A DNA stretch of 39,850 nt, taken from contig JYPD01000026.1 of NCBI GenBank assembly GCA_001567305.1, forward strand, positions 1 to 39,850, given 5' to 3'. The DNA comes from a candidate division WS6 bacterium OLB21 (GTDB lineage Bacteria; Patescibacteriota; Dojkabacteria; B142; OLB20). The notes beneath the pieces are model-generated. The model had not been told where the DNA came from. It saw only the letters and a list, made by a program, of their open reading frames with translations, and searched no databases. Numbering within the stretch: position 1 is the first letter of the stretch; each line of letters starts with the position of its first letter. Positions 18,053-39,812 of the stretch are shown in pieces. The position numbers and the translations under genes were made by a program.

Positions 18053-18853
18053 ATGAAGATAATGTGCATAGGGGATATTTCTGGAAGACCAGGAAGAGAA
18101 ACAGTAGCAAAATTATTACCACAAATTAAGGCCAACGAGGGAATAGATTTCGTGATTGCCAACTGTGAAAACGCAGCCGGCGGATACGGAATAACAAGAC
18201 AGATTTTAGACGAGCTATCTGGTTATGGAATTGATTTTTTCACCAGCGGTGATCATGTTTGGAAGATTTCAGATTTTCTTAATGATCTGCAGGATCTAAG
18301 GCTGCCTCTTGTGCGGCCTTACAATTATGAACAAGAAGAGCAGATTCCAGGAAAGGGTTACGAGGTAATAGATATGGGTTCGGAAAAGCTAGTAATTATT
18401 AATATGTTGGGACAAGTGTTTATGCATGAATTTGTCAGGAATCCCTTCTGGTCGATTGATAGTTTACTAGAGAAGCTTAAGGAAGACGGAGTAAAAGAAA
18501 CCGATGCTATTATCATTGATTTCCATGCAGAGGCAACTGCCGAGAAGATTTCTTTTGCCTATTACCTTGCCGAGCGGGTAAGTGCAGTCGTAGGGACTCA
18601 CACTCATGTTCCAACTGCAGATGCAAGAATTATCGGTAGGGCAGCATTTGTGAGCGACCTGGGAATGGTTGGACCGCTTGATGCATCGTTATGGGCCGGA
18701 TTTGATGAAGTAATTCATAATTTTAAGTATCCGTTTAAAAAAGCGAAACAAATGCAAACACAAGGTAGAAGGGTATTTAATTCTGTTGTAATTGAAATAA
18801 TAAAGGGTAAGGCAGTTTCAATTAATAGGCTCGATCGCACGATATCGGCATAA
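18053..18853 (+). CDS. ymdB: YmdB-family metallophosphoesterase (cyclic nucleotide phosphodiesterase type)
   Basis: A 266-residue calcineurin-like phosphoesterase of the TIGR00282/YmdB family. In Bacillus YmdB hydrolyses 2',3'-cyclic nucleotides and affects biofilm and RNA metabolism. Metal ligands are visible in MCIGDISGRPGR (D8), ANCENAAGGYG (N40-E41 region), FTSGDHVW, DFHAEATAEK and GTHTHVPTADARI. The length equals the family norm and the frame is intact. It diverges from def across 38 bp. The biological substrate in this organism is unknown. Confidence 0.92.
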   Translation: MKIMCIGDISGRPGRETVAKLLPQIKANEGIDFVIANCENAAGGYGITRQILDELSGYGIDFFTSGDHVWKISDFLNDLQDLRLPLVRPYNYEQEEQIPGKGYEVIDMGSEKLVIINMLGQVFMHEFVRNPFWSIDSLLEKLKEDGVKETDAIIIDFHAEATAEKISFAYYLAERVSAVVGTHTHVPTADARIIGRAAFVSDLGMVGPLDASLWAGFDEVIHNFKYPFKKAKQMQTQGRRVFNSVVIEIIKGKAVSINRLDRTISA

Positions 18854-19175
18854 TTTTTCACGAAAAAAAAATCGTATACAATTCTCCTTTAAGTGAAATC
18901 TGGTTCTTTGGCTTGATGCCCAGTTGCAGGTTGTTAAAAGGTTAGGTTTTTGGAAACTCAACTCGTGCAATGCTTCTTGGCTGGCAATGTTATTATTCCT
19001 ACTACCTCGGGGCGTTTTTAAAATATTGTTACGCTCTACTTTGGGTAGAGTAGTGGGAATCCCTATATAACAAGCGAATACTTGACATTCCTTGTCACGA
19101 TAGTACATACTGTGCCCATATTCTCTTATCTTTTCAAAACAACTTACATGAAAAGAAATCCAATCACGAAAGGGG
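18854..19175 (+). other. Unassigned 322-base intergenic region; possible structured RNA and HU leader
   Basis: No protein frame is supported. A TATACAAT box at 18875-18882 could start a transcript. Downstream, nested pairings (TTGCA with TGCAA, GTTG with CAAC, GGTTT with AAACT, flanked by CCAG and CTGG) suggest a long hairpin between about 18917 and 18990, ending near CGGGGCGTTTTT at ~19010. A 6-bp hairpin CTCTAC/GTAGAG lies at 19034-19050. The last ~90 bases contain the HU promoter. It does not match SRP, 6S, tmRNA or RNase P RNA by eye. Confidence 0.3.
19082..19087 (+). promoter_or_regulatory. -35 box of the HU gene
   Basis: A perfect TTGACA. The best -10 (CATACT, 18 bp further on) is only 4/6. 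The resulting leader of about 70 bases is long for this window. It contains a 14-codon open frame from 19148 whose stop overlaps the HU start. Confidence 0.4.
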
Positions 19176-19187
19176 GTGCCCACAATG
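19172..19187 (+). promoter_or_regulatory. Strong Shine-Dalgarno sequence fixing the HU start
   Basis: A purine run AAAGGGGGTG ends about 7 bases before ATG 19185. It is the only strong Shine-Dalgarno element noticed in the window. It selects ATG 19185 over the in-frame GTG at 19176, which lies inside the run. Confidence 0.65.
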
Positions 19188-19457
19188 AATAAAAGCACAT
19201 TGGTAGATTTTATCGCCGGTAAAACAGGCCTTACAAAAAAGGCTGCTGCAGATGCTCTAGAAGCATTCATGTCAGCAGTTATGAGTAATGTTGCCAAAGG
19301 CGACTCAGTCACATTGACAGGTTTCGGTACATTCCGTGCATCAAAAAGAGCAGCACGCACAGGCCGAAATCCTCAATCTGGTGAGACCATCAAGATTCCT
19401 GCAAGAACAGTTCCTGTTTTCAGACCAGGTAAGGAATTTAAAGATATGGTTAAATAA
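19185..19457 (+). CDS. hup: HU-family DNA-binding protein
   Basis: A 90-residue histone-like protein that bends and compacts DNA as a dimer. MNKSTLVDFIAGKTGLTKKA forms the helical dimer base. The beta arm carries the signature GFGTFRASKRAARTGRNPQ with the proline at the arm tip (RNPQSGE), ending FRPGKEFKDMVK. It is full length and compositionally normal. It has a Shine-Dalgarno sequence and an intrinsic terminator, unlike its neighbours, which fits high expression. Confidence 0.97.
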   Translation: MNKSTLVDFIAGKTGLTKKAAADALEAFMSAVMSNVAKGDSVTLTGFGTFRASKRAARTGRNPQSGETIKIPARTVPVFRPGKEFKDMVK

Positions 19458-19481
19458 CCATCATTAACTGAAATTATGGAG

Positions 19482-19513
19482 CCCTGTACTTCTGGTACAG
19501 GGTTTTCATTTTT
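19482..19513 (+). terminator. Intrinsic terminator of the HU gene
   Basis: A perfect 8-bp stem (CCCTGTAC 19482-19489 with GTACAGGG 19495-19502), 5-base loop, followed by TTTTCATTTTT. This is the clearest Rho-independent terminator in the window apart from the T-box one. Confidence 0.9.

Positions 19514-39720: not shown

Positions 39721-39812
<92 letters not shown>

Follow-up and report, generated by a model that had tools for sequence, protein, structure and literature searches.

What is encoded in the gene-free DNA between a YmdB-like gene and the HU gene of a Dojkabacteria (WS6) bacterium? The window analyzed here is the whole stretch of 39,850 nucleotides, which is contig C26 of the 1.05-Mb genome G000. 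A sequence-only reading of it had proposed a small RNA of about 130 bases at about 18885-19020. Gene control in the candidate phyla radiation is poorly understood. We find that the interval is the control region of HU, comprising its promoter and 5' untranslated region (UTR), and that its strongest structure is a hairpin at 19129-19156, absent from the earlier reading, which most likely serves the HU mRNA as a control hairpin acting in cis. The features of the locus are as follows.

18053-18853, plus strand: YmdB-like phosphoesterase gene, the upstream neighbor (Pfam PF13277, 264.9 bits)
18854-19057, plus strand: spacer, including the proposed RNA of about 130 bases; no supported RNA of its own
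19058-19067, plus strand: AATCCCTATA, conserved DNA element about 25 bp 5' of the -35 box, within a 32-bp block (19058-19089)
19082-19087 and 19106-19111, plus strand: HU promoter, -35 TTGACA and -10 CATACT with an 18-bp spacer (10/12 in a consensus scan)
19129-19136, plus strand: 5' arm of the leader hairpin, TCTTTTCA (fold z -3.59)
19149-19156, plus strand: 3' arm of the leader hairpin, TGAAAAGA, which pairs with TCTTTTCA (anchored-arm test)
19156-19161, plus strand: AAATCC, single-stranded motif 3' of the stem (AAATCYN{3,9}GAAAGGRGG occurs once in G000)
19168-19176, plus strand: strong Shine-Dalgarno sequence of HU, GAAAGGGGG, ahead of ATG 19185
19185-19457, plus strand: HU gene, 90 aa (Pfam PF00216, 115.3 bits)

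Gene content of the interval

The interval is gene-free over 18854-19184. It reaches 19184 because HU starts at ATG 19185, a start that agrees with GAAAGGGGG and with relatives, as GTG 19176 does not. The earlier description of a stretch lacking a recognizable gene was borne out, in that the YmdB-like ORF stops at 18853, HU comes next, and neither of the two ORFs tested in the interval (18818-19360, minus strand; 18924-19070, plus strand) matches a Pfam family at E 0.1; a hidden protein was rejected on the basis of these two ORFs. The minus-strand ORF is an open frame of 180 aa, antisense to HU and its promoter, and is probably a product of chance. A strong intrinsic terminator of 13 pairs lies directly 3' of HU (19478-19506), which suggests a single-gene HU transcript. 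Rfam release 15, applied to the whole window at gathering scores, returned tRNA only and no family for the HU leader; a T-box, which the earlier reading had mentioned, is absent at the curated cut-offs, the whole-window listing consisting of a tRNA-Ser at 39721.

Structure of the HU leader

Against shuffled sequences, the leader gave a fold z of -3.59 for 19118-19167 and -3.4 for a 55-nt segment. The stem does not qualify as an intrinsic terminator or attenuator: it is followed by AAATCCAATCAC with no T run, and the terminator scan did not list it.

HU upstream regions of the class were compared using 70 regions fetched from 81 HU places, with nine genomes and two second copies omitted. Leader segments had a mean z of -1.98 against dinucleotide shuffles over 47 genera of the class, with 24 of the 47 below -2, whereas segments just upstream of the -35 box averaged -0.34 over 40 genera (7/40 below -2); within the order, the corresponding means were -2.17 and -0.79. 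Leaders of HU genes from outside Dojkabacteria, whose starts were chosen automatically (n = 38; mostly Bdellovibrionales and other bacteria, with a few Gracilibacteria, SR1 and Paceibacterota), had a mean z of -0.30, and two were below -2. Some leaders within the class fold weakly, including two in the order (G006, -0.24; G002, -0.36), G015 (-0.59), two of family f13 (+1.78 and +0.91) and one of f15 (-0.08), and those of f12 are mixed (+0.59 to -3.99).

Two families have peculiarities of their own. Nine f12 HU leaders lack a Shine-Dalgarno sequence (L060, L062, L063, L065, L067-L069, L072, L079), and their relatives have a strong one. The leaders of f8 (L071, L074, L077, L081, L082, L092) carry a conserved GTCGAC palindrome in the hairpin loop, which could let two leaders kiss.

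The position of the hairpin was measured in 13 leaders in which the 3' motif served as an anchor. The Shine-Dalgarno sequence lies outside the stem in 13/13, and the stem stops 27-28 nt short of ATG in every one; in these same leaders, the distance from the -35 box to ATG ranges from 79 to 147 bp. From these comparisons, many Dojkabacteria HU mRNAs appear to start with a hairpin whose letters drift and whose pairing is kept. In the order and the nearest families, the arrangement is a hairpin, then an AAAUC(C/U)-type motif, then a strong Shine-Dalgarno sequence, and the end of the stem lies 27-28 nt before AUG.

Conservation of pairing

Retention of pairing was assessed with an anchored-arm test, in which the AAATCY-type motif served as anchor in 13 of 14 leaders of families f1-f4, f6 and f10; the leader of G004 has no anchor and was omitted. 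In 8 of the 13 leaders, the 6 nt before the anchor were fully complementary to part of the 34 nt that precede them, compared with a permuted mean of 2.5 and maximum of 7, so that none of 2000 permutations reached the observed count. With 7 nt, the count was 4/13 (permuted mean 0.72; reached in 5/2000).

Family f9 provided a second case. A common 12-pair stem with a bulge on the 3' side was found in 15 leaders (alignment A1), which were chosen by eye as one form from the 26 leaders of the family. Six of the 12 pairs change on both sides, as many as in none of 500 shuffles, and the signal was lost when the partner was slid. Together, these sequence comparisons point to a conserved structure in the 5' UTR of HU, of the kind found in autogenous leaders, though RNAalifold failed to recover the stem from MAFFT alignments (five pairs and -0.14 kcal/mol for f9; no pairs for the order set). 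RNAalifold sees almost nothing because the variable stems and loops fail to align by letters. A covariance-model alignment of 46 leaders (A4) gave 88 covarying cells versus 29.4 expected from shuffles (0/500 as many); this was given no weight because the alignment was fitted to the structure and its order rows are visibly misaligned. We regard the leader hairpin as very probably real and under selection.

Occurrence at HU and elsewhere

The pattern AAATCYN{3,9}GAAAGGRGG, which was composed after viewing these leaders, occurs once each in six of the ten genomes of the order, always at HU and nowhere else. In f9, the family covariance model R1 matches 27 of 31 genomes, picking out the HU leader in all 27, and the four misses are the four genomes without an HU hit. 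Among 12 HU-bearing f9 genomes outside the model, one of which (G063) is close to a member, the best match was the HU leader in 12/12; R1 also found three weak further places in the family that are not HU (E 0.0025-0.0067). The window's own leader goes unrecognized by R1, and the case for homology across families is therefore built on where the hairpin lies, its spacing and the AUC-type motif. The f9 leader as a general motif of Dojkabacteria or of the candidate phyla radiation was rejected: R1 matched 22 of 239 genomes of the phylum, 13 of them at HU in the class, with a non-HU match in G007 and matches in eight genomes beyond the class (E 6e-5 to 9e-3). Among 14 non-HU places inspected by eye, none opens an HU gene, and most have just a Shine-Dalgarno context in common.

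Other translation starts served as a control. Among Shine-Dalgarno-led starts outside upstream frames, taken from 400 kb each of G001 and G029, HU had the lowest leader z and was the sole start below -2 (1/13 and 1/21, respectively); with starts in upstream frames included, 6/58 and 3/60 were below -2. The other starts in the window (n = 37, most of which lack a Shine-Dalgarno sequence or lie inside other genes, and one of whose segments contains the terminator after HU) had a mean z of -0.73, with five below -2. Within the stretches and patterns searched, the leader element therefore appears to be restricted to HU.

These data bear on whether the hairpin senses anything at all. Hairpins at the 5' end stabilize a number of bacterial mRNAs, and HU is usually abundant. 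The hairpin may be a constitutive feature of such an abundant message, protecting its 5' end from decay or holding its Shine-Dalgarno sequence open. The HU leader resembles the stabilizing hairpins in being a sequence-free 5' UTR stem at a constant distance from AUG, with the Shine-Dalgarno sequence open and outside the stem in all 13 anchored leaders. It differs from them in being absent from the other sampled genes and in having a conserved single-stranded motif. A stabilizer would be expected on other genes, yet the 12 and 20 other free starts in the two 400-kb stretches, a small sample, showed no folding excess, and the AAATCY pattern is limited to HU. A plain stabilizing hairpin is nearly as likely as a ligand-bound control hairpin, and we consider it possible while stopping short of calling it probable.

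Promoter and upstream DNA element

HU would be transcribed from the promoter at 19082-19111, with a start near 19118. The conserved sequence ahead of it begins at 19058 because the block containing the upstream DNA element lies there. The 32-bp block includes AATCCCTATA and reaches the HU -35 box, which falls inside it, and is 88% identical in the nearest genome compared, G001, whose HU is 92% identical. A motif of the (A/G)AA-CC or (A/G)AAA-type CC form is present 25-28 bp ahead of the -35 box in six of the ten order genomes. AATCCCTATA also resembles a CCYATAR element ahead of HU promoters in f9, where CCYATARN{10,13}TTGACN{17,19}TAWWWT matched 25 times across 22 of 31 genomes, with HU accounting for 23 of the matches, versus three for the reversed control. 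Thirteen of 45 genera have the 7-mer CCTATAA, compared with at most 10 in shuffles; 6-mers of the element do not exceed their own shuffles. Within the window, the element has one exact copy, at HU. Separately, GTAGAGTAGTG-like letters are seen in the spacers before f12 HU promoters (L065, L068, L062) and at 19044-19053 of the window (GTAGAGTAGT).

Since AAATCC-like letters flank the promoter in this way, the hairpin itself could be an inverted repeat in DNA that a transcription factor or HU recognizes. Comparison of the two strands did not distinguish these cases: G:U numbered 7 and A:C 6, and the plus strand folded better in 29 genera and the minus strand in 18 (Wilcoxon p 0.116), so that neither test was significant and RNA and DNA are not separated by them. 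The stem letters vary among genera and the pairing is kept, which is the reverse of what a sequence-read operator would show, and the hairpin holds its position relative to AUG across 13 leaders in which the distance to the -35 box is variable. A DNA site is accordingly an unlikely reading, and we think it rather likely that the hairpin is a cis RNA element.

The spacer upstream of the promoter

The sequence-only reading was correct that the interval holds a structured RNA outside Rfam and mistaken as to where, the hairpin lying at 19129-19156 and not at about 18885-19020. The letters on which it had relied do exist: a -10-like box, TACAAT, ends at 18882, and the nested segments TGCCCAG..CTGGCA, TTGCA..TGCAA and GTTG..CAAC can be read in the sequence. 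They are weak evidence because the nested set recurs in shuffles (31 of 1000 dinucleotide shuffles with one bulge allowed), the folding is ordinary, and a terminator is absent. The box near 18875 has a weak -35 and a consensus score of 9/12, and the promoter scan found seven sites compared with 5.2 in shuffles (sd 2.1). Fold z was +0.98 for 18885-19025, +0.14 for the core at 18916-18988 and -0.17 for 18885-19080. No intrinsic terminator that could end such an RNA was among the terminator-like sites at 18885-19080; CGGGGCGTTTTT has no stem ahead of it and is absent from the sites of the scan. An Rfam scan of 18800-19220 at E 10 produced just two eukaryotic chance matches far below cut-off.

Conservation pointed the same way. 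Only 19058-19089 of the region aligns with G001, blastn of the spacer adding just a chance-level 19-mer (E 0.087), and the RNA of about 130 bases is not conserved in this close relative, an outcome that the earlier reading had itself named as counting against it. By comparison, blastn finds an alignment for the RNase P RNA of G000 in at least seven of nine relatives, a lenient control given that this RNA is longer and changes more slowly. When 55-nt segments were slid across the spacers of the ten order genomes at seven offsets, mean z was -0.64, -0.42, -0.24, -0.43, -0.36, +0.05 and -0.23, and 5 of 70 segments were below -2.

Two better-folding parts of the spacer remain in favor of a stand-alone transcript starting near 18875. 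A hairpin at 18985-19072 has a z of -2.25 (4 of 200 shuffles equally good), and blastn found no counterpart in G001 beyond the promoter block. The segment just 5' of the -35 box gave -2.08 in G000, -2.6 in G001 and -3.02 in G006 in one test, and -1.41, -2.78 and -2.5, respectively, when shifted by one base with new shuffles. No common structure was found behind these segments and the hairpin at 18985-19072. Other shared structures were sought and rejected: a duplex search of 30 upstream regions for a closing helix joining the spacer ends scored 27, of which two had z below -2 (L007, -2.01; L064, -4.05), and found no shared helix, and pairwise alignments with RNAalifold revealed none in the pairs tried. 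A separate small RNA in this stretch is not supported, and we consider one very improbable.

That the spacer conceals 6S, SRP or another housekeeping RNA in divergent form deserves next to no credence: SRP RNA models match nothing in the order and 6S few members, which implies that something goes undetected somewhere, but the region has no Rfam match to such an RNA at E 10, no SRP domain IV motif was seen in the spacer by eye, the RNase P RNA of G000 is located on C23, and G006, with the same kind of HU promoter spacer, has its 6S-like match on C10 and its HU on C9. The searches used 6S, both SRP models and RNase P A; apart from RNase P, all were absent from G000. The 6S model (RF00013) gave no covariance match in G000; at E 10 it matched three of the 85 genomes of the class, one over the cut-off. 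The recognizable members are G024 (53 bits, over the cut-off), G006 (40 bits) and, weakly, G043. For SRP RNA (RF00169, RF01854), none of the ten order genomes, G000 included, was matched by either model. SRP RNA is nearly undetectable in Dojkabacteria: at E 1, just one of 85 genomes had an RF00169 match, and it fell short of the cut-off; as a control, this model matched 12 or 13 of 14 known genomes.

Discussion

We propose that the HU leader hairpin acts in cis. It would be included in the HU mRNA transcribed from 19082-19111 and would act on HU synthesis post-transcriptionally. At 27-28 nt before AUG, it may sit at the upstream edge of the initiating 30S subunit, where an agent that binds or melts it can alter ribosome access or mRNA decay; a ligand or an RNase would act there. 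As the pairing is kept despite changes of letters, the leader may regulate the amount of HU. A cis-acting leader with HU as its likeliest ligand is quite possible as an overall explanation, if somewhat short of an even chance.

HU is proposed as ligand because the E. coli protein binds RNA as well as nucleic acids that are kinked or bulged, and exerts control over rpoS translation. PMC6907758 describes a preference of HU for distorted DNA (cruciform, bulged) and binding to RNA, and PMC2634741 describes promotion of RpoS translation by E. coli HU with direct HU-RNA contact. HU in excess could bind this leader and slow its own translation. This identity of the ligand is tentative. In a more specific version, HU would bind the hairpin shape together with the AAAUCY flank and block the ribosome, and a conserved AATCCYTATA-type DNA site ahead of the promoter, to which HU or a partner of it may bind, would set transcription; we hold this combination to be doubtful.

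Autogenous leaders are known for nucleic-acid-binding proteins, such as ribosomal proteins. As in those leaders, the HU element is a 5' UTR hairpin near the Shine-Dalgarno sequence, is restricted to one gene, and precedes the coding sequence of a protein that binds structured nucleic acid; it differs in that the gene is HU, no rRNA mimicry was seen, there is no Rfam family, and HU is a putative ligand. The E. coli HU-rpoS system is similar to the proposal in that HU acts on an mRNA and contacts RNA directly, according to PMC2634741. There, HU raises the translation of another gene, whereas the action proposed here is on its own mRNA and could be of either sign. No HU leader RNA was described in Rfam, and neither an HU leader RNA nor a Dojkabacteria leader RNA in the literature searched, which left out most subscription journals.

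If the HU-specific leader is true, it would represent a previously undescribed family of cis RNAs with HU as ligand, whose shape is kept and whose letters drift. Purified HU and synthetic RNA would suffice for testing the proposed feedback, so that the organism need not be cultured. Should HU indeed read its own leader, the main protein that packs DNA in these near-minimal genomes would be under a simple feedback control.
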